Part shown: piece by piece, positions 6,134 through 55,391 of the stretch | How the letters are laid out: the number at the start of each line of letters is the position of its first letter | How positions within the stretch are numbered: the first letter of the stretch is position 1 | The notes under the pieces: model-generated | Seen by the model: the letters and a program-made list of their open reading frames with translations, nothing else | What the model was told of the DNA's origin: nothing | The model's database searches: none | Program-made: the position numbers and the translations under genes | Source: Tribonema minus | Taxonomy: Eukaryota > Sar > Xanthophyceae > Tribonematales > Tribonemataceae | Reading direction: 5' to 3' | DNA length: 64,000 nt | Assembly (NCBI GenBank): GCA_017506865.1 | Contig: JAFCMP010000224.1 | Location: 372,001-436,000, forward strand

Positions 6134-9100
6134 CTATAACTCCACAGGCGCCAGCCCAGCGTCCGCATCGGCCTGCTCCTGCGCCGTCAACACCCCATCT
6201 ACACTGTCCGCTCGCCTACTGTCAGCTGTTGCTTGCGCCTCCGGCAGCGGGGGGTCGGGGGACGCACCCCCTTCAGCACTCTCATCTGCCCCCCCTTCCC
6301 CCGATTCTTCAACTGGAGCGGCAGCGGGGGACGCTACCAGTTTGGGGGTTTCGTCCCCCAGGAACTCCCTGAGGTGCTCCACCTTTCGGCGCCACTTGAG
6401 GGCGTCTGGGTAGTCGGGGCACAGCGCGAGTGACTCATCGAAGCAGTGCGCCGCGGCGTCGAGCTGGTTGAGGTAGTAGTGGCACACGCCCATGTTGTAC
6501 CTGCAGCGCGCGCAGGCGGCAGCGCACGCGATGAGTGCTGCGTTGGACGCAAAGGGCTGCATGTTACGGCATGGGTAGACTTAGTTAGTAGCGGCACAGC
6601 ACGAGCGACTCATCGAAGCAGTGCGCTGCGGCGTCGAGCTGGTTGAGGTAGTAGTGGCACACGCCCATGTTGTACCTGCAGCGGGCGCAGCAGCAGCGCG
6701 TCGCGCGATGAGCGCTGCGCTGCATGCACAGACTGCATGTCGCGGCATGGGTAGACTTCAGGTTGTGTGACTTGGTCTCTTTTTGAACTGAGAAAACCCC
6801 CATTCACGCATGAGATCCTCCACCAACCCTAGCCCCGGACAACTCAACTACTTGGACCCTAACCGTAGCGCAAGCTGTGCTCTCATTCGCTGTGCTGCGA
6901 ACCTGCACTGCAACTCAAATGGCGCTCTCAACAAGCGTAGAGATGCTGCAGAGCACTCCAGACATCCACACGTAGCATGCTCTTGCACGCAGCACAATCT
7001 CGCAGCAGCGCTCACCAGCTGACGTGGTGCACGCCGCAGTGCTTCTGGCTGTCGGAGAAGAGTTCCACGGCCTGCGCAAAGTCCTTGAGACCCATGTATA
7101 TGCGCCCGAGCTCAAAGGCGACATCCTTGCTGGGCAGCAGCGGGTAGTAGCACGAGTACACCTGCGCATCGGTGGCGGCGGCAAACGCGAGCGCGTTACA
7201 TACAAACATGCGTGGCAGTGAAGTCATGCACTTACCACCGTGGGGACAAGGGGCAGGCGTATATGAAAGACATCACCGCGCCTGTGGCCAACAGCGCTGC
7301 TGCACAAGGGACACAACTTCAAGTCAGATACAAGTTGAACTTGAACTTGAAGAAGTTCGATGCGGTTCGTAGTCTGACATCTCAAGTTTGAAGACGCGAG
7401 CCGCCTGACATGAAGCATACATTTGCCCATGTTGACGTCAACCCTGAATAATGTTTACACACAGCCAGGCGCATTCTCACCCTGCGCATGTCGTGGCGGA
7501 TGTCATTCTGCAGCTTCTCGGAGGCGTGCGGCGCCTTGTCGATGAACGCCTGCTTGAACTTGTAGAACACATCCGGGTCATGCTGGCTGAGACGCACCTG
7601 CCGCAGGCACAACAGCGCAATTTGACAAGTAGAAAGGGACGGCGTCAGAGGCGTGCGGCGTGCCGCTGCCCGCAAATGACGCAGCGGCGCTTTTTGTAAA
7701 GAAGAAGTCAGGGCCTTCGTCATTGGCGAATGTGTCGTGAGGCCTGCGTGGACCAATGGGCGCATCGCGGGCTGCCGCTGATCAGCTGCGCGGTCAGTGA
7801 GCAAGACTTCACTTCCACGCCATGGACCTCAGCGCATGCGCACGGTCGCAAAAACAGGGACGTGAATGAACTTCAACTTTTTGGCGGGATGAGCGAGAGA
7901 CGCAGAGATGAGGAACGGGCGCGGAGCGGGACAGAAAGCGAGCGACAGCATGTATGCGCACATAGGACGGCCTTGCATGACTTGGTGCGCGCGTTGTCCA
8001 CCACACACAGGCAGAGTTGGATAGATATGATGCCGTTTTGGGGGTAGGGGCCCACGGACACTGCAGTCGGGCTTGCGATACCTGCATACCCTTCCGTGCC
8101 TGATCAATGCGTGCATCTGCTGAGCACCAGCTGCTCCAGTACACCTTCTACTTCAAACTACGAAAAACTAGTGAAAAAAACTTTCGTTCTATAAATAAGG
8201 AAGATAGGGGGTGCTTACCACTGCAAGCGCGGATCGCAGGCCGGGGGTCTTGCTCTCCTCCTTGAGGCACCTCTGCAGCGTACTGAATCCGTCCGGACCG
8301 AACCGGCCGCCCAGTAACTGTCCAAAGTGCATTCTGCAGAGATGCCAACGGAGTGGGGAGCGATGAGGTTGAAGTTGCTGCAGCTCATGACGTTGCGAGT
8401 GCAGCAGTTCACCATGAACAATGCAGGACGCCAAGCGTGTTATGTATCGGCAGCTTGGCCACATGCAACTTTAAGTGCAACTTTAAGAACTCAGACACGG
8501 CCAAGCTGACCGCAAGAAGCGCTGTTAGCGCAGCAGGCGTTGCCGATGTCAACATCAAGCCGCGCTCCGGCCCACAAAGGATGATCAACCAATGAGCGTC
8601 GAGCTGATGCGCAGCGCAGCGGTTCATGTACAAGTGCCTGTGACGAAAGCACGTACCTGAATGAGGGAGCAGCTGCGGCGCCGCCCGGCAGGCCCAGGCC
8701 GTAGCCCACACATTTGAAGCCCTCCATCGCCGGCTGCGCGGCATTGCGGCACAGCGCATGGTCAGAATTCGCATACCTACGCAGTGAGTGTTGTACGTAG
8801 AGGCGCCCAATCTGTGAGACGCAGAGGGCGCAGAGCGCTGTCAGACAGTGCTCTCAGAGCGCTGTCGGACAGTGCTTGAGAGGGCCCAATGTTGGTAGTG
8901 GAATATGATTGCGGCGGTACGTGGAATTCTCAAGAGCGCACCGTATGAGACTGGCACAGTGATCATGCCAGCACATTGAATGAACCCCAACAAACTTGAA
9001 GTTTGGCAGGTGCCATGCGAGCAAGCACCATGTATACATCTATATATGGCACCATGTCCACATACACACATGCGTCTTAGGCAAGATGCCAACGTACCGA

Positions 9101-12100: not shown

Positions 12101-15074
12101 GGTTTGTACATCATGCATCTCACAACAGGAACACTGTCGAGCAGCTGCTAACCCTAACCCTCACCCTAACCCTGGCATTGATCAGGACTTTCAGGACGGT
12201 TTCTTGCGCCAAGGTCAGCCGCGCAGGTGCCAGCGAACTCTCAATATGATTGGAGCAATTAGGGCTAGGGTAGCACGAGTCTTAGCAGACCGACGGCGTT
12301 CTCACCTCTGACTGGAGTGACTAGGGTTAGAGCTCCACTAGTCTTAGGGGCTACTGTAGACCAAGTCCCCTGCAGTGGAACTGGTATGGTGATGATGAAT
12401 GGTGTGGCGCGCACACACAATACCTATGTATTTTACTTCGAAAGTACTTGGGTAAGGAGATGCCATTTTGCGATGTCATTGCCAAGTGATTGTCATCGCG
12501 TATCGGAACACTTTCCACAAGGTGTGTGCACGTAGATCCTGGTAGCAAGCTTGACATCAACCACCTGGGCGCTTTCGAGCCCGGATCGATAATCATTAAA
12601 GTCAAAGTACTTGGTACCACACTCATTAAAGTCCAAGTACTTGGTACCACATCGAGCATACTGAGCAATGCTGACGCACCCTGCCGCCGCCCCGCGTGCC
12701 GCAGCTCGCACGCGCGCCGCAGCTGTTCCAGCACCGCGCTTACTGAGCAATGCTGACGCACCTTGGCGCCGACCCGCGTGCCGCAGCTCACACGCACGCC
12801 GCACCTGCTCCAGCACCGCGCCAGCCTCCTTGTCGTCGGGATAGTAGGCAGCTGCGTCCGCCACTGACCGCGCCCGCCCTGACTCAACACAAGCGGCGAT
12901 TGCACTTGAAGTGGTGAGTTGAAGTTTTATCCGACAGCGGCGAGGCGCACGCAGTTGAAGCGGTGAGTTGCATGCACATCCAGTAGTGAGCTGCAAAGGC
13001 CGAATGGCGCAGTGCTTATAATCTGTGGAATGGATAGCTTTCGCATCAAGCTCGTCCAAGCTAGTTACTAGATGAAAATGGCCATACGTGAAAACATACC
13101 TTGTGACGGTTGAAGGCCCCCGGCCACGCCCGGCCTATTACGCCATTGTACGCATGCCTACATTGCACCCAAACTTCATGCTGGAAACTGTTGTCTAGCA
13201 ACGCCCCCTAGCCTGCAGCTGTCACGTGATCGCTGCCACAATGTGCAACGCCCCGTTGCTTGATTACGTGTAGCAAAATGCTACTGGGCCTCAGGATATC
13301 AGCGACGCCACATGGTCGATATCCATCAGCAAGTCTGCCTGGCAGACATGAGACTCAGGACAAGACAGTGCAAGTCGACCTGTTGCTGAGCCACGTGTGG
13401 TGCAGTGTCTTGTGTGGGCTAACCCTAACCCTAACCCTAACGTAACCCTACCCCTAACCCTAACCCTGGTGGTCATGGTGACACAGTACTGTCAAGTTTG
13501 CTACCGTATGCAATGGGTCCCCGCCACATCGCGCACTTCCAAGCTCCACAGTACTGCAACTTCAACTATTCCACAACACTTCAACTCTGTGACCTTCAAC
13601 AAGAAAATTTAACTGTAGACAAGAGCGATGATGTGGCTTCTTCAAAATTTCTGCGTCTCACATGTACACTTGATGTGCCTCAGGACCTCCGGCGCGAGCG
13701 ACGCGCGTACGTCTGCGGGCGCGGCGGCCGCTGACACAGTGCTCAGCAGCTCCTCCAGCTCGCCGCCGGCGGTCACGCGGAAGGCGTCCTGGCGCAGCGA
13801 GTCGAAGACGTAGTTGGCGACGCACACCACGGGGTGCTCCAGCGTGCCTGAGCAACAAAGTACATATCGTCGTTGATGGGCGTTGAGTGATCGAACGACA
13901 TACGTGCGCTGTGAGCATTGTTGAGCATTCAGCGATGGAAGTATCATAAGCAGTGTGTGTAGAAGTGTTTGAAGGGGCGCTGGGGACAAGGTGGATGCAG
14001 CAATCGATGTTTTCAATGGAAAAAAACGTTGTTTACAAAGGGAGAGCGCTCTTCCAGCGGGTGTCTCACTTTTTGCAACATCAAACTTCAAGTCATCAGT
14101 GCACACCAGGTCGAATGCTCACCGCCAACAAAATGCGGAAGACCAATCCGCAATATCGGAACTCCTACCAACAGCACGTGGTGCAGCAACATTGGGTCCG
14201 CAACATGTTGGTGGAAGGCATTCAATTTGACGGCTAACCACACCTTGTCAGCTACAGTAGTAGAGCTCTACAAACTTTTGATTCGTTTCCATGTTCAGAG
14301 GACGCACTTGGCGGTGTGATCACCGACACTGCAGACAATGCTCCCATTCAACGATGAAGTGGTGGAAGCTCATCAATGCTACGAAAGGAGGCCACACTGT
14401 GCCGCGATCAAGGCACGATCATCAGAAACGTCAACAGACTGACACTGCGCGCTTTTCAAACATCGAGCCTCAACTTCAGCATCGACCATCAGGAAACACG
14501 CAGAACAAGCGCACAGCGCATGACATCACAAACAACTCATTCACTTGAGGTCTTCACCTGGTTGTAGCACCTCGCCGGAAACCTCCAGCTGCAGCGCCCC
14601 TCCCTCCTCTGCGTTGTAGCGAGCCAGGTCCAACAGTCCGCTCTCGAACAGAGGCCGCAGGCACGAGTGCTCCCTGAAAAACTGGAACGTCGAATCCGTC
14701 ACGTCCGTTATGATGTACTTGAAAGGAGCCCCCCCATCCTCTCTCCTCGGCCAGAACTGCCTGAGACCCAGCAGCTTGTGCAGCAGGACAAAGCTCAGCT
14801 TGGCTGCTCCAGCTCCCAGTTCCACGATGTAGATCGGTTGTGATGTCGCCACCTTGGTGCGACCGCCGGCCATGTGCTCTCTTGCGAAGGCCAGTATGAC
14901 CCTGGCGTAGGCATGGGCTATGAAGCAATTGGACGTAACGAAGTTCGGCACTACACAGTCCTGCCAGCACTTGATGCCCGAAGCATCGTAGAAGGACCCC
15001 TGCAGCCTCCAGAGCTTGCTGGCGCTGAGGCGCACGTCCTCTTCAATAATGCCCTTCTCTATCGGGTTGCTCAT
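6134..15074 (-). CDS. SAM-dependent methyltransferase fused to TPR domain, 663 aa, 12 exons
   Basis: Exons in transcript order: 15074-14558, 13847-13662, 12863-12762, 10918-10794, 9846-9772, 9157-9098, 8811-8657, 8333-8219, 8116-8090, 7597-7481, 7161-7016, 6500-6134. Every junction has GT..AG and matching phase; the total is 1992 nt. The N-terminal part is a class I methyltransferase: a YARVILAFAREH helix, motif I IVELGAGAAKLSF near residues 83-95, then ANYVFDSLRQDAF (about 180-195), AYYPDDKEAGAVLEQVRR, FLMPVGALAALRNLRAL, a GDKGH turn, and HIALHGSFSCM joined to VNFYALRLFVEAAGG. It continues as RFGPDGFSTLQRCL, LSQHDPDVFYKF and two TPR-like repeats (FELGRIYMGLKDFAQAVELF; YNMGVCHYYLNQLDAAAHCF), ending in an acidic Gly/Ala-rich tail. 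From memory the order matches bacterial methyltransferase-TPR proteins with a V-N-x-x-A element after HGSFS. The substrate is unknown. The 27-nt ninth exon and a GTGCGC donor at exon 4 are unusual. The start is the only ATG fitting the domain's N-terminus. Confidence 0.88.
6416..6763. repeat. Tandem duplication of the last-exon 5' edge (about 175 bp x 2)
   Basis: The segment covering the acceptor and first TPR of the last methyltransferase-TPR exon (6416-6588) is repeated at 6592-6763, including CTGCAG|G and YNMGVCHYYLNQLDAAAHCF. The upstream copy keeps the acceptor (exon start 6675) in the same phase, but its frame stops after about 30 residues. If used, it would give a short isoform lacking the acidic tail; otherwise it is skipped intron sequence. 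Confidence 0.9.
12148..12174 (+). repeat. Interstitial CCCTAA array in intron 3 of methyltransferase-TPR gene
   Basis: About four CCCTAA-type units with one C/T variant. Single degenerate TTAGGG-like units follow at about 12258 and 12323. Confidence 0.9.
12661..12824. repeat. 82-bp tandem duplication spanning an exon 3' edge
   Basis: Units 12661-12742 and 12743-12824 each contain the end of exon 3 of the methyltransferase-TPR gene (peptide AVLEQ[VL]RRACELRHAGRRQ) plus its GTGCGTCAGC donor. The true exon runs through the 12743-12824 copy. The other copy keeps an open frame, the donor and the same phase, so it could act as a second donor or alternative exon. Confidence 0.9.
13420..13467 (+). 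repeat. Interstitial CCCTAA array in intron 2 of methyltransferase-TPR gene
   Basis: Eight CCCTAA-type units with two single-base variants. Confidence 0.95.
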
Positions 15075-15385: not shown

Positions 15386-18300
15386 ATGCAGGAGGAGCAT
15401 GGTGATGGTGGGAGGAATGCGGAGCAGCAGCGTGCTTTCAGGCACAGGCACCCCGCATTCTGGGAACCGGGCCCTGACAAGAAAGCAGCACTCGGGACGA
15501 GGCTGCACAGCACGAGGAAGCAGTTCAAGCTCGATGGACATAGGGTGGACTGGAGCTCACGAGCGCAGAGGCTGGGCAGGTCAGCATTGCTTGCGTTCAT
15601 GCGGAACTCTCATCATCAGCTGCTAATCATAGTAATGATTGCAATCTCATTTACCAGGCACTGGCAGCAGATAAACCTAAATTCCGAGGTGTTCTCACGC
15701 AGCGATCCGATCCTCTCAGGTATCCGAAGCTTCGTATAGACCCAAAGCTGGAGAAGCAGCTGGAGGTGCCTCCGTTGCGTCTTTGGGGATGGGAATTGGG
15801 CAATATCTCATGGCACGTGGCCATGTTTTTCACCTTTGGTAAGTGCACCCCAACAAAATCGAGAACCGTTCGCATGGCACATGGCCTGGCATGAAGGCCG
15901 GCGGCGCGTTAGTTATCACGCCGTCTATATATGCACCGGCATTGGCGGTGAAGCCCTTGTAACAGAAGCGCGTTGTGTGCAGGGCCCTGCCCACAACATC
16001 AACAACCCCAAACCGTAAATGCAAGTCCTCGAGTCTATCTGGTCTAGTAGCCATGCTTATTTGCAATCGCTGGTATCATCATTGCTGGTGCCATCATTAG
16101 TATGCACTGCACCCAGCTTCTCCTCTTTCCTGTTTTTGAAACAAGAACTTCAACTTTTCATGTACCGACACGTGTTTGATTGTACGGCGCTACTGTTGAC
16201 ACCGGCAAAGCGCATGTGGGATGGCTGGTCACGTTGGTGATCACCATCGAACGAGCTCACGGCAAGGCTGCACCGCAAAGTGTCAACTGCAGCAAGGCGG
16301 TGTTGGCAACAACCAAATTCTCACCTTCAATAATGAATATGGTTTTTTGGTGCATGTGGTCAGTGACCTACTTTACACCGCATGCTCATGCCAGTGCTGC
16401 CGCAGAAAGAGAGTTGAACACTAGCTGCATCGCGCATGCGTGCCCCTTCGGACCATCTGAATCTATGGTCAGTGCACATGAGCTGCCCGTCAGCATCATG
16501 GCACCACAACCTGCACCAGGTTCGGCGGCCCACCATCCTTCCAGTCGGATGCCCACTGCCATTGAAGCGCAGCGTCTCAAATACCTGCGCTGTCTCATTG
16601 CCTCACAGGGTCCATTGCCTGGTGTGTGAATGGGCAGTACGCGGTGGCGCACCCGGAATCGGATGTCATTGAGTGGTCTGCACTGGTGGGCGCGGGGCTC
16701 TTCCAGATTGGCGCATATTTGGTGAGCCCTAGTTTTGCGTCAGAAACCCTGGCACAATTGTCAAGTCTCCGGAATTTCGGTGCTGATAGACATGTATATA
16801 TAGGTGCATACTTGGCTATTCCAGATTGGCGCATACTTGGTGAACCCTAGGTTTGCGTTGTTGGAAACCCTGGCACAATTTTGAAATCTCCGCGGGTTCT
16901 GTGCTCCCAAATATGAACGCTAAAAAGCTTGCACACAGAAGTCTTTTTGTCTACTGTGGTTATGGTGGCACTCTTTGACTCGTGGCCAATGACTGCAGCA
17001 GCGGCGACCACGGTTATTGGTGGAAGGCACTTGCGGCTAACCATCCCTTGTCACCTAGAGCTCAATGATCTTCTTGATTCGTTTTTCATGTATTAGTAAT
17101 GCCTGCGCTACTGTTGCGGCATGGGCGGTGATGCCAGATTTGAGTAGTGGTGGAGTGCGACCACGGCTGCGCTGCGAGTGTTGTGGAACGCGACCAGCAC
17201 TGGCGCACAAGAGCGCGCTGCTGCACTTCGAGTGTGTGTTTGAAGTTGACGAGCACGGGACTCACTGAGCACTGGTGCGCACACACCAAGCACTGCACTT
17301 CATATTGAACTTCATGTGGCGAATGCGCGCAGCCCCATGCGCTGGCGCGATGTCGAGTCGGCTCAGCAGGCTTGTATGCGGGGTCTGTCCCCGCCCCAAT
17401 ACACACCTTCAGTCAAACGCCACTGTCTCAGTGTGCCCTTGGAAAACAATGCAGTGCTCGAGCTGCGCAGTGAGTGCTGCGAGCGCGGAACTTATGGTTA
17501 CGGTTAGGGTTAGGGTGAGCAAGCAGCACGCGATGTGCACAAGAAGAAGTGTCTGAACCGCGCCTCATGGACCTATGTCTGGCGCAGGCGGTGCTGCAAG
17601 CGCTCAACAGCGAGCAGCACATACCCCCCACCGGCTACGACGAGGAGGCGCTGGTGGCCCTGGCAAAGCAGGGCGGCGATGCCGGTGGCGAGGCTCAGCA
17701 GCAGCTGGAGGAGGCCAAGGGGGACAGCCTTGACGCCGCACCAAGTGAGCATTGAAGATGCATTGTATTGCATTTTACATTGTTGAAGTCCATGTTGTAG
17801 TTGATGACGGTGGCGAGGCTCAGTAGCAGCTGGAGGAGGCCAAGGGAGAGCCTCGACGCCGCACCGAGTGAGCACGGAAGTTGCATTTTGAATTGTTGAA
17901 GCTCATGTCAAAGTTGATGTGTGCTGTGCTGCTTTTTCTGACACTCTCGACATCCAGCTTGCGGCAGCAGAGCATCCAGTGCTAGACTGCACGCCAGCAG
18001 CACGCGCACAGTTGAAGTTTGTAACTGCCGTAACTGCCACTCCATGTGACCATGCAACTGGTGTTTTTACATACTTGAAGTCTGCGCGTGCTGCCGTGCT
18101 GGGTACTGCGTCTTCAGCATACTGGGTAATGTTGAAGTGCGCATGTGCGCAGCCGCGCTGAGTACGATCTTCCGCATAGGACCGTGCAGTTTGTACCCGC
18201 CATAACTTTCATAGCATGCCACGGCGCTGTACTCAGTACCACATATTTTGTATCCGGTTTGCGATACTACAGCACCGAGTAAGTGCGCTGCACACACCGT

Positions 18301-23309: not shown

Positions 23310-26300
23310 TCAATTGTACTTGTGTCGGCCGAAGCCTACTCCCGCGCCAAAGCCACCCAACCCCCCCCCCGCTGCTGCAGCATTTGAACAGAGCGGCGCG
23401 CCGAAAGGCAGAGCGCTGCTTTGCCCTATGGAAGGTAGTCCCGTGCCGCCGATGCCCATGCCGAATGAGTCGTGCCGCTGCGGTTCGCCGGACCCTGCAG
23501 GCAGCGGCGGCAGCGCGCAGAGAGGTGGAATGAGGACAAGCATGAGCAGAAGGGTCCACGCCACTAACTTCAAATAGCCCAGCGCCGATGCTGACCAACA
23601 ACAACGAAATCGTGCGTGGAAAACACCACTTCATGTATGTACGCGGAATGCAGCGACGTCATGCCGCTGCGGTTCACCGGACCCTGCAGGCAGTGAGTGC
23701 GCAGAGGGGGTGGATGAGGTGCAGTCGTAGTAGGAATTGCTGCGGTTGTCCTGGTGGTAAACCTGAGGGTGAAGGGCACGCCCCACAAAGTTCAAGTTGC
23801 CGCAGCGCCGATGCTGATCAACATCAATGAGATTGTGTGGGCCGACACGACTTCAATCACGCACAATGCGGCAACTACAACCAGTCCCCACTGGCCAGGG
23901 GCTTGTACGATGGGCACGTGGCACAGCCTGCAGCAGCTACACCTGCCGTGTTAAATAGAGCGCCACAGCGGCGCAGTCCGTGAAACATACACCTCCCCCT
24001 GATATGCTCGTGTGGTGATTTCCGTGTCAACCAAACAACTGATGCTGCGACTGCAATGCGGTCCACTTGTGATGGTGGTACGACACACCACGCGACAGCG
24101 CCACAAACCCTAATCCTAACCCTAATCCTAAGCCGTCCACACCGCTCATAACTGCCGCATCAGCCTTACAACACCTAAGTTCAATACCATTTGCTGCGAA
24201 GACCAGAGCCAATTGCTGTCTTTGCAAGTACAGTACTACGGAAATGCCATTTAGAAATGGCACACAGACAGTATCGCAATGCAGCAGCGCTCACCGCTGC
24301 CTGCACCGCCCATCATCGCCGCTCCATACCCCCCCATGCCCGCCCGCTGCAGCGGCTTGTACGGCGACGACATTGGTGCCTTGAAGCCCCCAGACCCCCC
24401 GCTGCTGCCGCTGGGTGGGGGCCCCTGTGCCGGCCCGTACCTGCATTATGCAGGGAGGTGACCGATGTTGCAGGGGTCAATGTGCAGTTGCTGGTTGTAT
24501 GGTTGTAGCACAGCACCAGGATCCAGTAAGAAGAGTCTGATGCCAACGGGTCAGGACGAAAGATCGGCAAGAGCGAGTCAGCTGCACGTCATACAATCTA
24601 CAGCATCAAAGGCATCGTGCCCTGTTGCGGCTATGGATTCACTCCAGTCATTGGTGACACAGGGTGCCGCGCTGGCAGCTATTGCAAATACACCTGGGAT
24701 GCAACCGTATCGTAACTGCCCGTAACGTACTACTTCTACATATGCTTGCCATTCGTGTTGCTGTGTTCATCGACGTCGATGATGCACGGCCGTTACATGG
24801 CACCAAGCTTAAGGCCCCCACCACCTCTCACTTGACACACGGATCCCCCACATCCCTTCCTGGCGCAACAGCATGTACTGTTGTAACACCTACATACCTA
24901 CAGTTGCCAGACACCCCCAGCTCACCGTGCAAACCGCCCGAATTTGGACAAGCCCTGCGCCTGCTGTGCCGCCGGCTGCTGCTGCTGCTGCGCGCCCCCC
25001 GCCAACGACCCCCCCCACGCTCCAAACCCCCCAACGCCGCTCCCATAGCCCCCCCCCACTGCGCCGCCGCCCGCACCGCCGGCAGCCGCGCCTCCATAGC
25101 TACTTCCATACAAAGACCCTGAGGCGGCCGGTTGACTGGCAGTTGAAGTTGGCTGCCCGAACCGAGCCCCTCCCCCCGGCCAAGGCAGTGGCGCCGGCGC
25201 CGCGTATTGTGACGCGCTCGAAGCGGTGTAACTGCTGGCGTTGTTGCCGCCGGCGCCGGCTGCCAGGCTGGAGCCGATGCCGCCTGATTGTGCGTACTGA
25301 CAGTGCAGGCAAGAGGTGAAGCGGGAGCGTCAACATTGAAGTTGGTGTCCTTGCCATACGAAGCAACCGCCGCAGGCCATGCGGTTGTCAAGCACGCCTG
25401 CGCTGGTGCAACAGCTATGTTCGGTACTCTGAGCTGGAAGGTGCCATGCCAGGAACATCTGTGCACTTTGCTGTCCACAAACAGTGGCATCCAGCACATG
25501 ACGCGACTCGGGGCAACAGAGTGTTGTGATACAGTAAGGTTTTGAACATGCCTCGCTGCTCACAACAACAAAGCGGCTGAGCAATAAGTTGTGAGATATG
25601 TCCATGCAGAGCGAAGCCGCAGAACTGCTTATTACAAGCGTAGCTAAACTTCAAGTCAAGCGCTCATTGCAGACGCGCTGAGGCCGCACAGTGGCGGATG
25701 CGGCGCACCCCCTTCTGCTGCACTTCCAGCACGACTTCAACAAGCAAATGCTCTACAGGCACAAACGTCAAAGACTGACGTTGACGTCATGGCAACACAT
25801 CATCCATGTCCCGCACATCCTCAACATCCACTCTACATCAAGCACCGCCAACTTCAACACCTACACGGTACAGACCAGCACGCACCGATGACGCTCCGCC
25901 TTCCGCAACGCTCGCCCCGCCGCCCCCCCCAAACCCCCCTCCGAACCCCAACGCCCCCCCGCCCGCAGCGCCAAACGACGGTCGCCGCGCAGCAGGTGCC
26001 GCCGCCGCTGCCGCCGCCGCTGCTCCAAAGCCCCTACTTGGCCACTGCGCCGCCGGCGCTGCTGCCTGCGCTGCCGCTGCTGCCGGCGTTGCGGCGCTGG
26101 CATAGGATCCGAAACCGTCGGCGGCTGGCGCGCCGCCGCCGCTGCCAGCGTCGACTTCCGGCGCAGCCTGCTGCTGCTGCTCCTCCGCTGCTGCCGTCGC
26201 CGCCGCTGCTGCTGCTGGCGGCACAGAAGGCGCCATCGCGGCGTGCACCTGACGGGGATGCGGTCCAGGGAGGATGTGACGCTCGACACATTAGAGATAT

Positions 26301-31974: not shown

Positions 31975-33281
31975 GAACGCTGCTGCGTTCGTCACGTCGC
32001 TGTCTCCCACTCACTTTCCACGTGATCGCTTTCGGATGAGCCGAGACATGCAACTCCTCAGGCTTGAAGTTTGCGTCGGATCGGTTGACCTTGCGCTTAT
32101 TCACGGAGAACGCCCTGTTGCGGCAGAAAGTTGCTGTTGCGACAAGGTGGGCGTCATTGTGCACACTCAGCGCTGAACACCACAAACCGAGACGTTGCGC
32201 GATCACTCGACGCGCTGCGCGCGCTGGCCGACGCCGCATCCCTGCGCACCCGGTCGGCCACCTCTGCGGTGACGACGGTGCTGTGACACGGTCGGCCACC
32301 TCCTGCGGTGACGACGGTGCTGTGACGCGGTCGAGGTGATGGCTCGGATTCAAGTTCACGGTTCGCCGACTGTCCGGCGCTACTCCAACGGCGTACGGCG
32401 CCGGCGCGACCACCGAAGCCCTCCTCGTCGTATCGGAGATGCTCATCGTCGAACGCGTTGAAGCCGCCGTTCGACGTCGCGGCGGAGAAAAGGGAGGAGA
32501 AGAGATCTGGGCAACGGTCGTCTAGCTTGCTGTAGCAGCTTGCGCAGACTCAGTGTCATGAGTGGACACCAGCCTTGACCCGCGCAGCGCACTACGCGAC
32601 ATTGGCATTCAACGGGTATGGCGACATCAAGAGAGGTCAAGGCCTAGGTACACATTGCGTTGTAGAGGGCCGCAAACGTGCGACGTCGCTGTGGAGAGAC
32701 GATCCAATCCTACATGATTGTAGTTCCAATCGATTACGTGAAAAACGTACATGTTCAACATTGACGAGGCCACCGAGTGTCACCACCGTTGCATGGCCAT
32801 CGGCCCCCATGACTTGAGTAATCATAGTGCTGAATGTCATAATCAGAGTACCCAAGGGGTTTTTCCAAGCCATCATAGAGCAGGAAGGCCAAGATTCGAT
32901 GCAAGGGCCATGTAAGGGAGCCACAGCTGACGTCTGCTCACACTGCAACGATATGCACACGCGCCATAGCAAAATCGCCTGCAAGGTCATGTGCGCAGCC
33001 AACTACATAGTCTAGTGCAAGAGATTCACGACAATACCCACGCAATGCATGTGAAACGCAGCGCAGGTTGAAGCACAGCAACTAGAAAACATACTCCCAA
33101 GCTGCCATGGCTGTAAATATGGTGCCTTTATTTATAAACTCGTGGGGACACACATTCATTTATTTATAAAAAAATTGATGCGCATATTGTCTATGCCAAA
33201 GGCTCATAGTAGGGTATTGTACAATTTGAGCTGGCTCCGCACTTTGCACTGCATGCGGCAGCGCCACCTTGATCTGAATGT
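31975..33281. other. Intergenic between small membrane protein and quinone oxidoreductase
   Basis: Contains a two-copy 39-bp tandem repeat at 32252-32330 (CGGTCGGCCACCT, GCGGTGACGACGGTGCTGTGAC). A minus-strand frame (32446-31955) includes FSVNKRKVNRSDANFKPEEL, which reads like protein, but no intron of reasonable length links it to the exon at 31917. The rest shows no gene. Confidence 0.4.
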
Positions 33282-43141: not shown

Positions 43142-45188
43142 TTGCGCCGTAAAACTGGGTGCAAGGAGGGTCGTCAGCTGTTTCGTGGTCTCGCAGCTGT
43201 GTCAGGAAACTCTACCACCGTCGCGACGGGTCGGGTCAACAAAGATCTCGCCAACATGGAGGTAAGAGCGTCTATCAACATGCTCTTAGCACAACGCAAA
43301 CATATGCACGACCGCTTCTGTACGTGAATGCAACACGCTGGCGATGAGAATGCTGGACATCTCACTACTGCATTGCTGCTGCCGCATGTGTCCCCCGCAG
43401 ATGTCCACGTTCAGCTGCACAGAAGATACGACTTGGGAGGCCTTCAGCCACCTGGTATGCAGCACGCAGGTGCTTGGGGAAATGGAAGCGCGGCGCCATT
43501 TGGTGAATAGAATCATCACTGGCAATCAGGCAAGCTACAGATGTCGGCGGGGTCGCGGGAGCTCTGCGTTTTTGCGTGACGGGGCGGGGGGGCTCGGATT
43601 TTTGTGTCGTTCCCAAATCCCAGACTCCACGGTGAAGATGTGTCGAGATGCAACCATGCGTTGTCTCTAGGCATGCTTGTCGAAATGCACCCATGCGTTG
43701 TCTCTAGGCATGCTGTTGTGCATCACGTCAGCCAATTTGACGCAAGTGTTGGCTCCCGTGAAGCTTGAAGGAAGACGACAGGCTTTGAAGGCAGGTATGC
43801 CTGTTAGCTGGCGCCATAGCTATACTCAGGTGGCAGCAGCACTAACTCCAACAGAAGTAACAACGTCAACAGCAGTAAGAAGTATCTTACGAGATGTTCT
43901 TGTGAGTGACTGCATGAGCACCATCTAAACCTCCAAACTGATTGTACGCTGTCAGTGCCTGCAACGCAGTGGTCAGGTGGACACATGATGCATATTCATG
44001 AGGCGATGCACCCCAACCAGCGGGCATGTCTGCCATGATCCACTTGTGCATGTGTACACAGCGCATCCGCCAGAGGTGCAATCACTTGCATTTGCTTTGT
44101 CAAGTCTGAGCCCGGCATACTTCACGCTACGTAGTCACTGCTGCCTGCCACAGACTTGCCACCATGCTCTCTAGCTCCGTGACACTCTGAGCAGCCGATA
44201 ATCAACAATGCCAATGCGTCACCATCACTCCTGTGCAGGAGCTCAACATAGGCATCCTGAGGCCTGCGTTGGACGCAGCCCCTAGTATGGACGGTCAGTT
44301 TGTGATGACGTCGGGGGCGCTGCCAGTTGAAGATGGCTCGCTGGACTGCCTAATATATTGGGATCAGGACGAGTTCTATGCAGCCCAGGTACGCTGTCAC
44401 GCTGTCAATGTTATTTGCTTCATGGCGGCGTGTCATCTGGGCATGAAGCAGTGCCATGCTGTTGAGTCTTTGCCCTCATCACGTGCTGTGCAGGCCAATG
44501 CGTCGATGACTGGTGGTGCGTCTCATGAGCGCAGTTGGCACTTGCATTCACATCGGCCATATGTATCTGCATCCAGCGTTGCACGCACGGGCGTGGAGGT
44601 GATGGGCACCCTGCTGCGCCCAGGCGTGCATGCCACATTGTCGTAACGCTGGTGCTGCACCTATGTGCGCCCCCTTGCTCTCCGGTGCTGTCACCACGCA
44701 TCTCACACTGCAGTGATCTCTTGAACTGCTGCCCTGATGCGCACCCCTGACCTTCAAAAGTGACGCACAGACTTCCTGCCAGTAGGCATGTACTTCATAT
44801 GCTAGCAATACCAGCGCTGCACTCATACATACCCTCCCCTCTCTATCGTCCTACATCATCAAACAGACGGCCGCAGAGCTGGTGCGCGTGCTGCGGCGCG
44901 GAGGCGTGCTGCTGGTGGTAGAGGTGGAGGAGGCGCACAGCGGCGCGCAGGCAGAATTCATTGGCAGTGGCGTCTTTGAGGAGTCGTGCTATATGGTTGT
45001 GCAGCTGGGCGCGTTGGCGGTGAGTGTTCCCGATTACCTGCACGGCATACTGTTGCAACGTAGAGCGCCGCTGCTCACTAGCCTGTTGCTCCGCGCCGGC
45101 AGAGGTAGACATTGAGGTGGTCAATAAAACAGAAGACCGATGCCAGTCGTGTGCTGTTAGAAGTGAATGTAGTCTGGTCTGCGTAGCG
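43142..45188 (+). CDS. Methyltransferase-like protein (partly resolved exons)
   Basis: Supported exons: about 43142-43261 (open to ATG-GAG|GTAAGA), 43401 to about 43530 (MSTFSCTEDTTWEAFSHL, VNRIITGNQ, then a GCAAGC donor), about 43733-43794 (TQVLAPVKLEGRRQALKA), 44239-44388, 44867-45019 and 45105-45188. The last three join in phase. They read GQFVMTSGALPVEDGSLDCL, then TAAELVRVLRRGGVLLVVEV and a hydrophobic end. This is the second half of a class I SAM-methyltransferase: LPxxDxSLDCL corresponds to the post-I/motif II region, and RVLRRGGVLLVVE to motif III. The glycine-rich motif I was not found, so either an exon is missed or the SAM site is atypical. The junctions around the third exon do not agree in phase in my model. 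The 3' end is uncertain: a GCAAGT donor at 45189, or read-through to a stop at 45351-45353. Confidence 0.55.
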
Positions 45189-45796
45189 GCAAGTGTAACT
45201 GCCGTAACTGTCAAGCGTGCAAACGGCAATGAGCATGGTACAGTTGATGTTGAATGCCAACTTCATTGCTGCTATGGATACGCACCTGCTGCTAAGGTGC
45301 AGACGCCACGCACACTCACATGCTTTGAGGTCACATCCTTCAGAGATCAATGAAGTGTGAGAGCCTTTGCGAGTGTGACGGTTCTGCTGCTAGCGGCGCA
45401 CGCGTACTGCTCTTATTTGCGCAGCTGCGAGGCCCCGGGCGCAAGAATATGCGCACCGCAGGCATGCTGCGGCAGTAAGGGCTGTAACTTACCATATGCC
45501 TTTTCATATGTAGAGAGGAGAGGCGCACAGGTCGCAGCGCCACGAACTGCCTCATGCCCGTGGTGGTCATCTCATTATGCAGAATGTGTTGAAGAAGAGC
45601 ACTATCTGAGCACTGGTATGTCGCACTACATCAGCCCGCTACGGCATACGCTGGCATAGGCCCACAACCATCGCTGATCTGCTATACCCGCTTGCAGTTG
45701 TGCTTCCACGGACTGCCCTCCTCCCCGTGGAGCGCCACCCCTTCCCCTAGCATACATACCGCCACGAGGACATGACCGCACAGGCTAGGGCCCCCC

Positions 45797-46046
45797 ATAC
45801 GCATAGCTGCAAACTCTTCATCATTGCTCACAGTCAGCCCCTCCTGCGCGCACGCGTTGCGCCAGGCTCGGGCGGCCCATACAGACAGCTGTAAACTCGT
45901 CATCATTGCTCACAGTCAGCCCCTCCTGCGCGCACGCGTCGCGCCAGGCTTGGGCACATCTTCAGCTGTCCATCGCTCATACTTCAACTGTTCATTGCTC
46001 ATACTCAGTCCATTCCTCGCGCACGCATTGCGTTCTGCTGCGCCAG
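45797..46046. repeat. Three-copy tandem repeat of an acceptor region
   Basis: Two close 80-bp copies (from about 45797 and 45877) and a diverged third (to 46046) share TCATTGCTCA, CAGTC and GCGCGCACGCxTxGCGCCAGGC. The third ends exactly at the TGCGCCAG acceptor of the first resolved beta-hydroxylase exon, so the 3' splice site exists in triplicate. Confidence 0.88.
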
Positions 46047-49000
46047 GCCCTGCAGCACACGCTCGCGTACCCGCACGAGGACATCCCCGCGCAGGCGCTC
46101 GGCGCGGGCGGCGGCTACGGCGGCTGCGACTGCGCCGTCTACGCGCTGACCGTAACCGCCGCGCACGAGGCGCAGCGCGGCCACCACCACGGCGCCGCGG
46201 AGCACAAGCAGCAGCGCTCAGGGTCGGGGCGCAGCTCACGGGAAGGTTCCGGGACTGGCGCTGAGAGCGGTCCTGAGGAAGGTTCTGGCGGCAGCGGCGC
46301 AGACCGTGCGGAGGAGGGGGGACGGGAGCTGCAGACGTGCAGCGGGCAATGTTGCAGGGGGGTCAGGGGGGTTGCGCCCCCGTTTCTAGACTGGCGGGAC
46401 GTGTATCCGGAGCTGGGGATCCTGCTGGAGCCGCAGAATCTGAGTGACATCATGGAGGAGATGCGGTCCGTGAGAAGCGCGTGGAAGGTGAGTCATGACT
46501 CATGACTCATGAGTCATGAGTTCTGGAATGAATGCGTTCAATATGATTGTTATGCTTTGTCACTCTATGCTTCAGCGGCTGCAACGAATGGTGTCTGTTT
46601 CGACATCTCTTGTAGGAAGTGCTTTAGACTCCATGATTCAACGGCAAGTGGCAATGAATAATTATGAATTGAATGTATGGGTCCGCTCTGAGAGAGACTG
46701 GTGTCCAGCGCCCAGCCTGAACGTGCCCCCAGATTGGACGCAGTAACCTGATTGTATCGCAAATGTCCTCAGGGCATGTATGCACGATGCCGGCGTTGAA
46801 GCACTTCTGTCTGTAATCCTGGTGCATGGCGGGCATGACCAGACATGGGCTGCATTACTGCCAGCATTTCACTTCAGGCACGCATCATGTCTACTGCGCG
46901 GCTGCATCTCTAGCATGGCCGCAGCCGCAACAAAGCACTGCGCCAGGGCATTAACTGTCTCATCGCAGACATCATCTCCATCTGTCTCTCCTGGCACGAC
47001 CAGCATCGCATGCACATCCATTGCCACAGTGGTCAAGCAACGTCCTTAATGACCGCCACCTTGTGCCTGCTGCCTGCTATGGGCAAGCGTGGCCGCAGAC
47101 GCACTGCGCCTGTATCTAACCTTGTTGCCATGCCTGCTATAGACGAAGTGCTGCATTCAATCTCTGAAGCAGGGGACAAACCTCTGCGCAGTCTTCATGA
47201 TTGCTCCCCGAGTGTGAGGCTAACGTCAAAACCTTTTCATATCCAAGCTTGTGGGAGGCATGACTGAAGACGCATGAAGCTTTCGAATGTTGCACTTGAA
47301 CTTGAATTTCAAACGAGACACATTCCAGTCCTCAGGCAGTGATTGATAAACTTGGACTTTGCAACCCTTGCCTGAAGGCGCGCTATCGCTCTCATGAGCA
47401 GATTGTGCGTACACATGGTTGAGGCAAGCGCAGATGACGCTGCTCGGCTATAAACAACAGCAGCACCTCTGAGCTCCGCAACACCGACACCATCATGTGG
47501 GGGTAGGCAGAGCACTGCACGCCAAAGCACTTGTTAGTGCATTTCGTGAAACCAGAAATGTACGCGCCAAATCACTTGTTGGTTGTTGCATTTCGTGAAA
47601 CCAGAAGTGTGCGCGCACCGCCGCCGCCGCATTTCCCGCTGCATTTCGTGAGACCAGAAGTGTGCGCCCACCGCCGCCGCCCCCTGCAGGCATGGCCGGA
47701 GACGCACTACAGCGAGGGCGGCAGCGAGGACTGGAAGGTGGTGCCGTTTGCGCACTGCTTCCCTGCGTGCGACGCCAGCAAGCTCACGTGGGTGCCGCAC
47801 ACGTGCGCGCACTGCCCGCGCACGGTGGCGCTGCTCAGACAGGTGAGAGAGGACAGCGCTCGGCACCTGACACTGTTGAAGTTTGCCGTTGCGTCCGCTG
47901 GCGTGCGTCGTGCCAGCTGATTGGTCGGTGTGCCGTGCATGCAGCGCCTGGGGGCGTCAAGGTCGTGGTCAGAGGCAGAACTCATCACGCTTATGAAGGC
48001 AACATCTGACATAATGTGCAGTGGCGAGATGGTCTGTTGAGCAAGGCCGCTTCACAGTGGCCTCCCCGCACGCCCCCTGCACCGCCATGGCCGGCGCAGC
48101 TGCCAGCGACGCTGCCGCACGTGGCGCCCAGCAGCGTCGGCGGTAGTATCCCCTCCACCTGCCCCCCCCCCCCCCCACACACACACTGTGGGGTCATTGA
48201 TGAGCGCAGTAAGCGTGCCTTCCTCACATTCCCGCCACCGCTGCGGCGGCTGCGTCGGTCCACAGCATCGCTCAGCTGTGCTGCAGCAATACTCATCTAC
48301 GCCCCCCCCCCCCCCCGCCCCTCCCGTGCGCGCAGCTGCCGACGCTGCGCACGGCGCTCTTCAGCCGCCTCGGCGGCGGCACGAAGATCAGCTCACACCG
48401 CGGCTGGTCGGACCTCGCCAACGACGTGCTGCGGTGCCACCTGGCCCTGGTAGTCCCCCCTGATGACCCCCACAGCCGCGCTCTCAAAGGCGGCGGCGGC
48501 GGCGGGTCCTCCGGTAGCTTGGGCGGCGGCGGCGGCGGCGGCGGAAGTGCGCGCGCGGCGGAGGAGAGCGACGGCTGCTGCGGGATCTGGGTGGAGGGGC
48601 AGCGGCGCGCGCACCGCCAGGGGGAGATCATGGTCTTTGACGACAGCAAGCTGCACAAGGTGAGGGGGGGCGTGGAGCGCTGCCGCGCGGCGCTGCGGTC
48701 GCGTCGCGGCGGGTGATCTGACGTGTTCTTCCAGAGCGCGTGCGCTGCGCCGATGCTGCGGTCGTGCCTCTTTTTTACGGATGTGGTGCGCAGCGCTGCG
48801 GCGCGGCGCACTGGGGAGGGGCGTCTGTAGGGGGTGGGGACGCGCCACCGTTACGGCATGCACTGTTGTTGCTGCCGTTGGATTTGGTGTGCATTACTGG
48901 CATGCGCACGGTCCATTTAACGTCATTGCTCTACGCTGTTGTCTCTGCACACGATCGCGCCGATTCTGCTCCAAACCGTTCCTCTCCAGCATGCTGTTGA

Positions 49001-51760: not shown

Positions 51761-54700
51761 ATGGGGAGACGTGAGTACAGGCTGGAAGCTTAAGTTGCTG
51801 CGAGATTGCTGTAAGAGGAGCGCTTCCTCCACAGCCATGCACTGCAGGCCCCATGTTTCACAAACCGGAGTGGAGCACTGGAGCCAGGCCTCGTGCAGCG
51901 TCAAGCAGCAGCGAGCCGTGCAGCTAGGCGGATTCAAAACACAATGCAGGAAACATCTATATTGCGGGCCGCAGGATCGTCAGTAGCGGGAAGGGGAGGG
52001 CAGTCACCGCCTTGCTGCTAGCTTGACATCTTCTTCTGGCACAGTCGTAGCGCTGTATGTTATTGGCGCTGCCAAGGCTTTCAAATCATGAGACTCTGTA
52101 GTGACGAACTTATCAAGCACGGCGTTTGTACGGACGATTGTGCAGGGCATCGAAGTCTTGAACTGAAAGTTGCAGCACTGCTGCATCCGCCGCTTGGCAT
52201 GCTGCATCAGCAGCTGCAGCTAAAGCTGTGCCCACCAACATCAGGCTCTCTAGCTCTTGCTACAGCTGCTGCTTGCGGTGCCTGCTACTGCTGCTATGCA
52301 GCTGTTTCAGAGCATAGGTCACCATTGCCCCCTTTCAGCATGGGTCGCAATGCTGCCTCTGCTGTTCTCAACCTATAAGCAGTAGTATCAGGAACAGCAG
52401 CAGCAACCCGTAGCAACAGTCACAGTAGCTCAGCGGCTTCAACGGCTGCTGCCGCTGTCTTGATTGCCTCTTCTGCATGGCATCAGCATGAGCGTGCAGC
52501 CTGCACCGCTATCAGGCACACATCAACTCCTGATGAAGCTAAGCCTAATGCATCAGGCCGGCTTCCTTTGGTCCTAGCGTCCTCAACAGCTTGCGTAGTG
52601 CGGCGCTCGCTATTGCAGCAATCCCTTCTGTCACTTTCACAACCACAGATCGTCATTCGCATACGCGTCCCGGTTACCATCACCGTCACTATCGTCGCGC
52701 CAGAGGCACCTCCTCGGTGTGCCGCTGGAGCGCATTTCACATGCCTACATACCCACCCGCAGCACCGCTCGACCGCCGCGCCGCCGCCGCGCAGGGCCGG
52801 CGCGCTGCATCCGCTTCCAGAAGAACAAGCCGTTCATAAAGTCGCGCTACTGCCGCGGTGTCCCCGACCCCAAGATCCGCATCTTCGACTGCGGCAACAA
52901 GGCGGCGTCCGTGGACCTCTTCCCCTTCGTTGCGCACCTCGTGTCCGATGAGAAGGAGCAGCTGACGAGCAACGCCCTCGAGGCCGCGCGCGTCACCGCC
53001 AACAAGTACCTGGTGAAGTTCGGCGGCAAGGACGCGTTCCACCTGCGCATCCGCGCGCACCCCTTTCACGTGATCCGCCAGAACAAGATGCTTTCGTGCG
53101 CGGGCGCGGACAGGCTGTCGAGCGGCATGCGCCACTCGTACGGCAAGCCCACGGAGACGGCCGCGCGCGTGAGCATCGGCCAGATCCTCATGTCCGTGCG
53201 CGCCAAGGACGCCAACGGCGCCTCCTGCATCGAGGTGAGCGCTGCTTTGCAGGAGGCCACAAGCCCTGTCTTCATTCACACAAACTCGTATGCATGTAGA
53301 CCATACTCATGTATGTGTATGTAGGTATGTACATGTATGTCCGTGCGCGCCAAGGACGCCAACGGCGCCGCCTGCATCGAGGTGAACGCTGCGCGTGCGC
53401 TGTTGAGCGTTGCTGGAGGTAGCAAGAGACTGCCTGTATCATGTACTTCAAGGTATTATGTTTGAGCGGCGACTTCAACAGGCTGTGCCCGCCCAAGGGG
53501 CCAGCGCACAGCCTGATAATGTATGTATGTATGCATTGTTCAAGCAGTGATTGTAACAGACTGTGCGCTCAAAAGGTGCGCGCGGAGCGCGCTGCATCGA
53601 CGCGAGCGTGAAGCAGCGCAATGGCGAACGTCAAGCTCTGCTCGCCGAACAACCCCCTCGTGCTCCTGAAATCCTGACTTTACTGCAAGCCCATGCATTT
53701 TCAATATAGGCCAGTGCATCTAGCATGACATGCTCCTGTGGACTGGGCTGGACTGGGACTTTGTCGTCTGGCACGTGAGGGTCGGTCGAGCGCTGCTGTA
53801 GTGGAGGCCATCGGCGCTGACCGTGCAAACACGAGGTGGCTTTCGTGCACCAGTGCAGACGGGCTGCCATCTCGTCGGCAGCAGTGCGCAGCAGGCTGCT
53901 TATGCAGTGGACAAATCCAGGGGCGCTGCTGCTGCTGCTCAGCTGCGCCACCAATTGCCAATTGCTCTCCATGCGCACTTGTGAAGCCCATGACGTCGAG
54001 GCCACAGGCGCGGAGAGCGCCCGCTGCGCTGTTCCGCGAGGGCAGCATCCCCTGTCACGCATGTCGTCTTGACGCACAGCAACTGTGCCGCTACCACTGG
54101 ACTCCAGGGCAGGTGTGCTTGCATCTGCCCCATGCGCAAACTGTTCGCCGCCGCGCCCCCGCGGCTGCCCCCGCTGCCCCCGTATCATGTCAACAGTTGC
54201 CGCACCCACAGCGCGCCATGACACTACTGGTACGCAGTACCCCCACCGCCTCCCCTTATAGAGGCACATCAAGCGCCTGCACTGTGGCACACAAAGCGAC
54301 CCCGCCGACTGCCTTGTCATCCTTGTAACAAGGCACGCTTGCACGTGCTCAACTTCAACTCCGCCGCCCCTCTTCGGTGCCAGGCCCTGCGCCGCGCCAA
54401 GTTCAAGTTCCCCGGGCGCCAGAAGATCCTGCGCTCCGAGAAGTGGGGCCTGACCAAGTGGTCACGCGAGGACTACGTGCGCGGCCGCCAGGAGGGCTGG
54501 CTGGTGCACGACGGCAACGGCGTCAAGTACATCAGCCAGGTGAGAATTAGCTGCTGCTGCTGCTGCCGTTGCCGCCAGGCGGATAGGGCGGGCGCACAGC
54601 AGAACGCATGCATGTCTGTATATTATGTTTCCGTTTGGGATGTAAGCCAATAGTCAGTCGCCCTGGCCGCCAGGAGGGCTGGCTCGTGCAAGACGGCAAC

Positions 54701-55391
54701 GGCACAAAGCACATCAGCCAGGTGAGAAGCGGCCGCTGCCGCCTATGCCGCCTGCGCTGTTGCTGCTGCCGCCGCCGCTGTTTTCGCCGCTATCCCCGGT
54801 GCCGGCAATTAGGTGGACAGCACGGACATAACTGGTTTGATGCCTGTTCAGTTGCATTGCCGGCGATGGCGTGCGGACACTTGCGCTGTTAACTTCAGAT
54901 TGAAGTTATGGGCAGGAGAGTCACCAGGTTGTTGGGTAGCATGCGGTGATGGCAGCCCATGAGCGTCAACCATGGCTTGTGTAAACTGCAAAGCGATGGT
55001 GTGCTGCGGCCAGAAGGGCAGGGCCCTTCGCACACAGCTGCCACATGGCCGAGCCCTACGCTGGGCGGTTCATTCCGAGGCATGTGACAGGCAGCGGCAG
55101 CCAGTCTGTTGCGTGAACGCAGAGAAGTTGACGCACCTTTGTACAGGGTGTCATCTGGTAGCCGTGTGCGTGCAAGAGGTGCAATCGTACAACGAGCCAG
55201 ACACCTGCGGTGCAGACGGCAAGTCTTGCACCGAAACTCTGCGCTTCTGTTATCATCGGGTGTCTGCCTTGTACACAAGCGTCTGTCTGCCGCAACACTC
55301 TCTACCTATCTCACCGCGAGCTTGCTCTGCTGCCGTGTCTTCTGCATCGTATCGTGCACAGCACGGTCCCCTCAACAAGCGCAGGAACTAG
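51761..55391 (+). CDS. RPL10: 60S ribosomal protein uL16 (L10), 211 aa, 4 exons
   Basis: Exons 51761-51770, 52795-53234, 54384-54539 and 55362-55391 give 636 nt. The first coding exon is only ATGGGGAGAC before GTGAGT; its final C completes Arg-4 with the next exon, giving the family N-terminus MGRRPARC. Hallmarks follow: [72 protein letters not shown], then [15 protein letters not shown] and [16 protein letters not shown]. uL16 sits in the large subunit near the peptidyl-transferase centre and completes late 60S maturation. Length fits the family (210-220). Both internal exons have tandem copies of their 3' ends in the following introns. The terminal exon adds just nine residues, placed by the conserved HGPL. 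Residues such as the ADRLSSGM loop are intact, so the gene looks functional. Confidence 0.95.
53190..53390. repeat. uL16 exon 2 3'-edge duplicated, offset 147 bp
   Basis: ATGTCCGTGCGCGCCAAGGA through GCATCGAGGTGA of exon 2 (53190-53243) recurs at 53337-53390 with few changes (a Ser to Ala codon; donor GTGAGC to GTGAAC). A third, degraded piece is near 53572-53630 (GCGCTGCATCGACG). The copy lacks an obvious acceptor in front. Confidence 0.92.
54483..54728. repeat. uL16 exon 3 3'-edge duplicated, offset 182 bp
   Basis: GGCCGCCAGGAGGGCTGGCT through ATCAGCCAGGTGAGAA (54483-54546) recurs at 54665-54728 with several amino-acid-changing substitutions (His to Gln, Val-Lys-Tyr to Thr-Lys-His). The donor is intact in both. 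The true protein must use the first donor, since the copy breaks conserved residues. Confidence 0.92.

Follow-up and report, generated by a model that had tools for sequence, protein, structure and literature searches.

The window analyzed here is a 64,000-nucleotide stretch of the intron-rich Tribonema minus genome (contig JAFCMP010000224.1, referred to as C224, positions 372001 to 436000), taken from an assembly of 158 Mb in 554 contigs. It carries, among others, a uL16 gene and a V-ATPase B gene (61 to 64 kb), together with a TPR-like gene and regions assigned to a kinase, a quinone oxidoreductase and a beta-hydroxylase, and our subject is the short copies of exon edges found in the introns of such genes. 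A preliminary description had listed 12 local duplications in the window and had proposed that exon edges are duplicated in most of its genes, nearly always together with the splice site. Comparison of the window with itself by BLAST (E < 1e-3) revealed 33 direct local pairs (less than 2 kb apart), grouped in 19 clusters, and no inverted pairs at that distance, the sole exception being a palindrome at 46493 to 46521. The duplications of the window are real, and 20 first-order Markov resamples of the same sequence yielded 0 pairs against the 33 observed. Among the 12 listed duplications, 11 were recovered as direct local repeats; the one at 47536 to 47689 was weak, with short matches only (the best being 34 bp at 94%).

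Next, exon edges were examined in seven genes: two paralogs of mitochondrial ATP synthase alpha (L021 and L022), CCT8 (L023), CCT7 (L024), a uL16 paralog (L002), and the uL16 and V-ATPase B genes of the window. The first four were fetched through conserved families. Exons were found by spliced alignment to PDB homologs, and the boundaries were then adjusted by eye to agree with the reading frame and with GT/AG, because the spliced alignment sometimes ran through copies; the V-ATPase B exons were set by eye and PDB alignment alone, and a few outer edges (e.g., 828 in L021 and 3547 in L022) fall outside the region aligned to the homolog. For each edge, the last or first 100 bp of its exon served as the query against the bordering intron, with a score threshold of at least 50. 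One or more copies of the edge were present in the bordering intron at 24 of 47 edges (10/24 acceptors and 14/23 donors), with 46 copies in total. By gene, copies were found at 3/6 and 6/6 edges of the ATP synthase paralogs L021 and L022, 8/12 of CCT8, 0/11 of CCT7, 2/4 of the uL16 paralog, 2/4 of the window uL16 and 3/4 of V-ATPase B. In the four family-fetched loci, 17 of the 35 edges had copies, and each of these arrays was seen by BLAST too. In contrast, 428 comparisons of exons with foreign introns gave a top score of 42, with 0 at the threshold of 50. Considering the introns between verified exons, a copy lay in the bordering intron in 18 of 36 cases and elsewhere among the gene's introns in 1 of 144. 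Each array thus copies its own exon edge, and edge arrays are present on several contigs, so that the earlier view of a process rather than one mobile repeat holds. The extension to most genes was too strong, given the absence of copies from CCT7 and the rate in loci taken by place described below.

The arrays share a common anatomy. A CCT8 exon starting ATCATCAAGTCC is preceded by five upstream copies, all after AG (four CAG and one AAG); an ATP synthase exon ending ACCAAGG is followed by three downstream copies above threshold, with GTGAG after each; and three copies likewise follow a V-ATPase B exon ending TACACG. The copied piece comprises approximately 30 to 110 bp of exon plus the adjoining intron with the splice site, the longest exonic homology (112 bp) falling short of the full length of its exon. 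The splice edge is reached in all 46 copies, with GT intact in 21/27 and AG in 18/19. Across 25 sequences (of which L001 repeats part of the window), 239 pairs were direct and 3 inverted. Arrays hold up to five extra copies (six copies in all), and the period between neighboring copies has a median of 165 bp, with the middle half at 142 to 182 bp and a range of 117 to 341 bp; its closeness to the nucleosome repeat is suggestive only. These direct, close, same-gene copies are of the kind expected of internal tandem gene duplication. The spacers between copies were homologous in 40 of 83 gapped comparisons at z > 4, as a tandem unit would require, and not clearly so in the other 43. Some matched in a dimer pattern, the first with the third and the second with the fourth, as if units of two copies had been duplicated again. 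An edge-anchored comparison had hinted that introns were not co-duplicated, and the gapped comparison partly reversed that.

To judge the decay of the copies, they were compared with the real exons. Differences at codon positions 1, 2 and 3 amounted to 8.5, 6.0 and 17.1%, and 15 of 17 indels in the copies were frame-shifting, the profile to be expected if the copy decays freely while the exon next to it accepts only synonymous changes. The copies decay like non-coding DNA. Most differ from the exon by 5 to 20%, some with their own indels, and one 47-bp copy is identical. Between the ATP synthase alpha paralogs, 35 of 243 third positions differ, and the two introns compared align at 0.78 (681 bases) and 0.74 (553 bases), suggesting that many copies arose at about the time of the ATP synthase gene duplication or later. 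Counted edge by edge along the gene, copies above threshold numbered 0, 3, 0, 0, 1, 2 in L021 and 3, 1, 1, 3, 1, 4 in L022, unequal at 5 of 6 edges; gain or loss therefore probably went on after the paralogs separated, with the reservation that self-BLAST of the paralogs showed further, weaker copies below threshold, so that these counts depend on the threshold. Within arrays, the nearer copy was slightly more exon-like in 27 of 37 comparisons (9 opposite, 1 tie; mean difference, 0.027). By eye, gene conversion would fit uL16, where the copy has variants in common with its own exon both in the window (98%) and in L002 (84%). Also by eye, ATP synthase copies have retained states found in the paralog and not in their own exon, indicating that gene conversion is not general.

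The arrays are thus observed directly, as are their orientation, strict locality, registration at the exon edge, neutral-type decay and paralog differences in above-threshold copy number. They look like an active process in which exon borders and splice sites are copied repeatedly into introns, lengthening the introns and adding spare splice sites. We consider it likely that local tandem duplication recurs across exon-intron junctions and is tolerated since splicing keeps the junction joined to the rest of the exon. A short segment spanning the junction would be duplicated in tandem, with periods mostly of 130 to 205 bp, and splicing would go on with the junction that continues the exon, that is, the first copy for donors and the last for acceptors. 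Judging from the gene structure, the mRNA would then be unchanged and the duplication tolerated. The array would extend into the intron, with older copies lying deeper and decaying as non-coding DNA, while some copies would be re-duplicated as dimers and some may be re-homogenized by gene conversion. The mutational step could be replication slippage, template switching or staggered-break repair, which the data do not separate.

Whether junctions are also favored as sites of duplication is a separate question. That copies include the splice site is accounted for by purifying selection, and such inclusion is partly forced, because exon sequence can enter an intron by tandem duplication only if the duplicated segment spans the splice site; the near-constant presence of the splice site noted earlier is to that extent a matter of geometry. 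Duplications within exons are moreover removed by selection, and in edge pairs only one of the two copies decays, so that duplications inside the same introns are the appropriate control. In the seven genes, 53 of 57 pairs were edge-related, 4 were intron-only and 0 were exon-only. The four family-fetched loci contained 17 edges with arrays and 3 intron-only arrays (3/20), one of which (L021 3475 to 3935) has its start within the final bases of a pseudo-exon copy. Detectability was estimated by simulating events with ages uniform from 0 to 0.16, introns changing 1.5 times faster and 0.1 indel per substitution, and 198 of 220 edge events and 141 of 220 intron-only events were detected. With start positions estimated by hand (approximately 8 to 13 kb of introns vs 3.5 kb of edges), the expected share of intron-only arrays is 62 to 72%. 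The probability of 3 or fewer intron-only arrays in 20 is 2e-5 at a share of 0.62, 0.001 at 0.5, 0.016 at 0.4 and 0.1 at 0.3. Since so few intron-only arrays are not easily explained by selection, a junction bias beyond selection and detectability is probable.

Two gene models were used as well. The strict model was trained on verified exons and so is not independent of them; it recovered nearly all verified edges, missed the L023 exon at 8305 to 8439 and started uL16 at 52821. The loose model, a self-trained gene finder, drifted to micro-exons and was counted only as loose support. Clusters containing a strict-model edge were compared with rotations of the sequence. Such an edge lay in 8 of 18 window clusters (expectation, 2.06), the cluster at 20 to 636 being set aside as what we read as a tandem protein repeat of ankyrin type, in 11 of 54 clusters of 17 loci taken by place (4.75) and in 15 of 19 clusters of the four housekeeping loci (8.51). 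In all three sets, 0 of 400 rotations were as high as observed, an excess that is inflated, since the strict model calls some pseudo-exon copies exons (L021 1324 to 1421, L022 3883 to 3951 and L023 2882 to 2980).

Several observations weigh against junction-spanning tandem duplication as the whole account, or against a bias toward junctions. In 23 of 46 copies, alignable intron was lost within 10 bp from the edge, and clear homology was lacking for 43 of the 83 compared spacers, so that simple tandem duplication of a whole unit does not describe every copy. Identity did not fall significantly with distance overall (rho, -0.17; p, 0.26), and CCT7 had no copies at any of its 11 edges. By base coverage in the four family-fetched loci, 13 of 35 edges were spanned, compared with 28% of intron interiors (2602/9302) and 17% of exon interiors (532/3206); because partner copies of edge duplications count toward the intron figure, little bias could emerge from this measure. 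In the loci taken by place, a copy accompanied 12 of the 81 strict-model edges (19/116 with the 7/35 of the window), and exon-interior 100-mers, taken overlapping on model exons of the window and the 17 loci, came close to this, with a copy outside their own exon in 9 of 74. Likewise, 43 of the 54 clusters in loci taken by place lacked a strict-model edge, and the duplication at 2149 to 2465 of the window lies away from such edges. Finally, the p-value for junction bias leans on our hand estimate of the expected share and on few genes. The refuting condition named in the preliminary description, duplications just as frequent mid-exon or in intergenic DNA, gives a mixed picture: the verified genes speak for the edges, and the interior coverage, the exon-interior 100-mers and the clusters without strict-model edges speak the other way.

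In the window and the 17 loci, noncoding controls had a copy in 161 of 3000 nearby and 259 of 3000 far positions. The far control is contaminated, because the strict model misses genes with ordinary third-position G+C, and 220 of the 259 came from three loci, L009, L016 and L020. Donor-edge-like arrays were observed at L016 3960 to 4720 and L020 7180 to 7830, with approximately 5 to 6 copies at a successive spacing of about 110 to 135 bp. These regions are non-coding according to the strict model, and open reading frames (ORFs) there have a third-position G+C of approximately 0.5 to 0.6, vs 94% in the housekeeping training exons. From their sequence, both look like donor-edge arrays in a gene that the strict model missed. 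The L016 product is presumably EFL1-like, although Pfam did not name it; for 9 of 10 ORFs of L009, L016, L018 and L020, no Pfam family was found below E 0.1, and the tenth, from L018, matched FNIP. L009 (10 kb) has 37 local pairs in 9 clusters and only two strict-model exons, and remains mostly unexplained (a strict-model edge in 3/9 clusters).

These data bear on how far edge duplication needs a special cause. It may be that duplication is uniform and that edges stand out through selection on exons, slower decay and easier reading of coding sequence. This would fit the existence of duplications off known edges, the better detectability of the more slowly decaying edge pairs, and the interior and far-noncoding rates given above, and we regard it as a serious though rather unlikely account, set against the 17 edge arrays vs 3 intron-only arrays where 62 to 72% intron-only were expected, and against the reading of the L016 and L020 arrays as donor-edge arrays. 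Conversely, junctions may be mutational hotspots, in which a junction-tied process feeds edge copies into the intron like a conveyor, and introns would consist largely of decayed pieces of their own exons and spare splice sites; we put this forward tentatively, as somewhat less likely than its opposite. Possible causes would be chromatin registration or transcription- or splicing-coupled breaks.

Other explanations concern the nature of the copies themselves. Were they functional alternative exons or selected splice-site decoys, one would understand why similarity among pseudo-copies is higher in their exonic parts (0.84) than in the 60 bp of intron next to them (0.60; 0.52 after shuffling) and why splice dinucleotides are mostly intact. 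We find this improbable: dinucleotides are kept in 39 of 46 copies, where approximately 0.86 is expected from neutral decay (calculated by hand), gapped alignment rescues many spacers (mostly at 0.74 to 0.89), above-threshold copy number is unequal between close paralogs, and the copies, with change at all codon positions and mostly frame-shifting indels, show neither a kept frame nor mostly synonymous change. The same kind of duplication appears in the well-described model of Rogers (PMC4974935 and PMC2891723), in which an AGGT-containing exon piece duplicated in tandem gives birth to an intron. A birth signature, defined as the upstream exon end repeated at the intron 3' end or the downstream exon start at the intron 5' end, was absent in 36 of 36 tests, and the copies lie near their own edge within an existing intron, which makes traces of such births very unlikely. 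Introners, known in diverse eukaryotes (PMC9860276), or another mobile element are hardly credible here, with 1/144 hits in other introns of the gene, a nearly single orientation and no sequence common to many unrelated sites among the 428 foreign comparisons at threshold. An assembly artefact from mis-joined haplotypes or reads would be conceivable in a draft of this many contigs; it is just as implausible in view of the 5 to 20% divergence of most copies, the private indels of some, and the arrays on several contigs and in paralogs. Local tandem duplication across junctions remains the preferred account.

Related systems are known. Gao and Lynch reportedly described, in 2009, internal gene duplication spanning exon-intron boundaries, to which the present case is alike in being tandem, within the gene and across such boundaries; it differs in its short units (median period, 165 bp), its arrays of up to six copies, its occurrence at about half of the tested edges, and in that no new exon or intron was recognized. 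Zhuo et al. are said to have reported, in 2007, introns from tandem arrays in human genes, which would resemble the present case in linking tandem arrays with introns. In tandem exon duplication with mutually exclusive exons, exon sequence is also repeated in the neighboring intron; here, in contrast, only exon edges (112 bp at most) are repeated and indels mostly break the frame. Intron gain by tandem duplication (Rogers; Hellsten et al. 2011; the potato RdRp gene, PMC4974935) likewise involves a copy carrying splice signals. It makes a new intron, whereas here an existing intron is lengthened and the birth signature was found in 0/36 tests. The nearest single analogue found is an 83-bp tandem duplication within an intron, mentioned in the potato study, which left the gene structure unchanged. 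Introners resemble the present case as a genome-wide process affecting introns (PMC9860276), and differ in that no common element sequence was found here. We recognized no description of exon-edge arrays in introns in the literature searched, most subscription papers being outside that search.

Intron growth and the supply of cryptic splice sites are usually attributed to transposons or unseen steps. The arrays would offer a mechanism, open to direct dating, by which introns grow and cryptic splice sites and pieces of exons are supplied, each array being a time series because several decayed copies are kept in order beside the functional version. If junctions are true hotspots, a mutational process would be linked to gene structure. 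Exon copies in housekeeping genes carry coding-like sequence plus splice sites, and the third-position G+C of 94% makes exons and their copies easy to recognize. They are also a warning for gene finders, as the copies look coding, carry splice sites and were in part taken as exons by the strict model.

As seen in Table 1, the duplications listed earlier differ in how well a splice site is placed within them. The donors 53234 and 54539 were located by homology and the edge at 6500 by the strict model; at 12650, 16696 and 17678 the edges come from the loose model only; and no gene-model edge lies within the copies at 23469, 35201, 36589, 37593 and 45781. The kinase, quinone oxidoreductase and beta-hydroxylase duplications are real (weak at 47536), but their BLAST-found copies are without a gene-model edge. 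Conversely, edges with copies at 61208, 61362 and 63824 of V-ATPase B, a clear case omitted earlier, and at the strict-model edges 58155 and 59452 had not been listed.

Table 1. Local duplications of the window and the exon edges they accompany (window positions)
Feature	Position	Strand	Basis or remark
uL16 exon, homology-located donor 53234/53235	52795..53234	+	PDB homolog alignment, spliced alignment, boundary read
uL16 donor edge, real copy (45 bp exon + 11 bp intron)	53190..53245	+	96% identity with 53337-53392
uL16 donor edge, intronic copy, period 147	53337..53392	+	self-BLAST; copy also present at the equivalent position of paralog L002
Donor edge of next uL16 exon, real copy, exon end 54539	54483..54576	+	self-BLAST, spliced alignment
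Intronic copy of uL16 donor edge 54539, period 182	54665..54752	+	self-BLAST
V-ATPase B exon, donor edge 63824	63824..63955	-	PF00006 match, PDB alignment, reading, strict model
Three decayed intronic copies of V-ATPase B donor edge 63824	63377..63730	-	periods 176, 133, 132
V-ATPase B exon, acceptor edge 61362 and donor edge 61208	61208..61362	-	Pfam, PDB alignment, reading, strict model
Intronic copies of V-ATPase B acceptor edge (CAG, then GACTTGTCGACC...)	61479..61778	-	one above threshold, second visible in self-BLAST and reading
Intronic copy of V-ATPase B donor edge 61208, period 119	61058..61129	-	86% identity
TPR-like gene, duplication at model exon edge, period 175, 88%	6411..6758	-	strict-model exon 6383-6500; predicted edge
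Tandem pair, period 82, 89%	12650..12821	-	loose gene-model edges only
Local duplication, period 118, 82%, common GTGAR motif	16696..16905	+	loose edge 16721
Local duplication, period 125, 80%, common GTGAGC	17678..17919	+	loose edge 17744
Local duplication near kinase gene	23469..23855		self-BLAST; no gene-model edge inside copies
Three local duplications, quinone oxidoreductase region	35201-35387, 36589-36826, 37593-37785		self-BLAST; no gene-model edge inside copies
82-bp tandem pair, 89%, upstream of strict-model exon 46047	45781..45955	+	no edge within copy
Duplication at strict-model exon edge 58155	57878..58226	-	putative V-ATPase B C-terminal part, by position

CCT7 and CCT8, two subunits of one chaperonin, have copies at 0/11 and 8/12 edges. 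Overlapping neighboring ranges of chaperonin hidden Markov model (HMM) matches at C51 21979 to 22639 and C5 352998 to 353558 suggest edge copies in two more genes of the CCT family. By eye, HSP70 exons tile without clear copies; the same kind of HMM search missed the known ATP synthase copies, so that the HMM lists for HSP70 and the proteasome are uninformative.

Nearly perfect two-copy tandem repeats (37 to 51 bp) were also observed off strict-model edges, at 4675 to 4775, 30087 to 30171, 32251 to 32333, 37114 to 37189 and 43641 to 43714 of the window, indicating that tandem duplication here is not restricted to junctions. At 58960 to 59462, an array of approximately three units of 152 to 159 bp touches the strict-model exon at 59452. 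The heptamer ACTTCAA/TTGAAGT occurs 78 times in the window vs 5.8 expected (e.g., at 20556 to 20590 and 30279 to 30314), and its core TTGAAG/CTTCAA has a density of 1.9 per kb in model introns, 1.6 in intergenic DNA and 0.44 in exons. A role of the heptamer as a duplication seed was considered and found unsupported, with the core at 5 of 46 junctions compared with 6.8% of random intron positions. Finally, telomere-like CCCTAA/TTAGGG runs lie inside the contig, with 16 matches to CCCTAACCCTAA where 0 are expected, at window positions 13419 to 13467, 17504, 20676, 34390 to 34430, 36892 to 36929, 59691, 61822 to 61872 and 62130.

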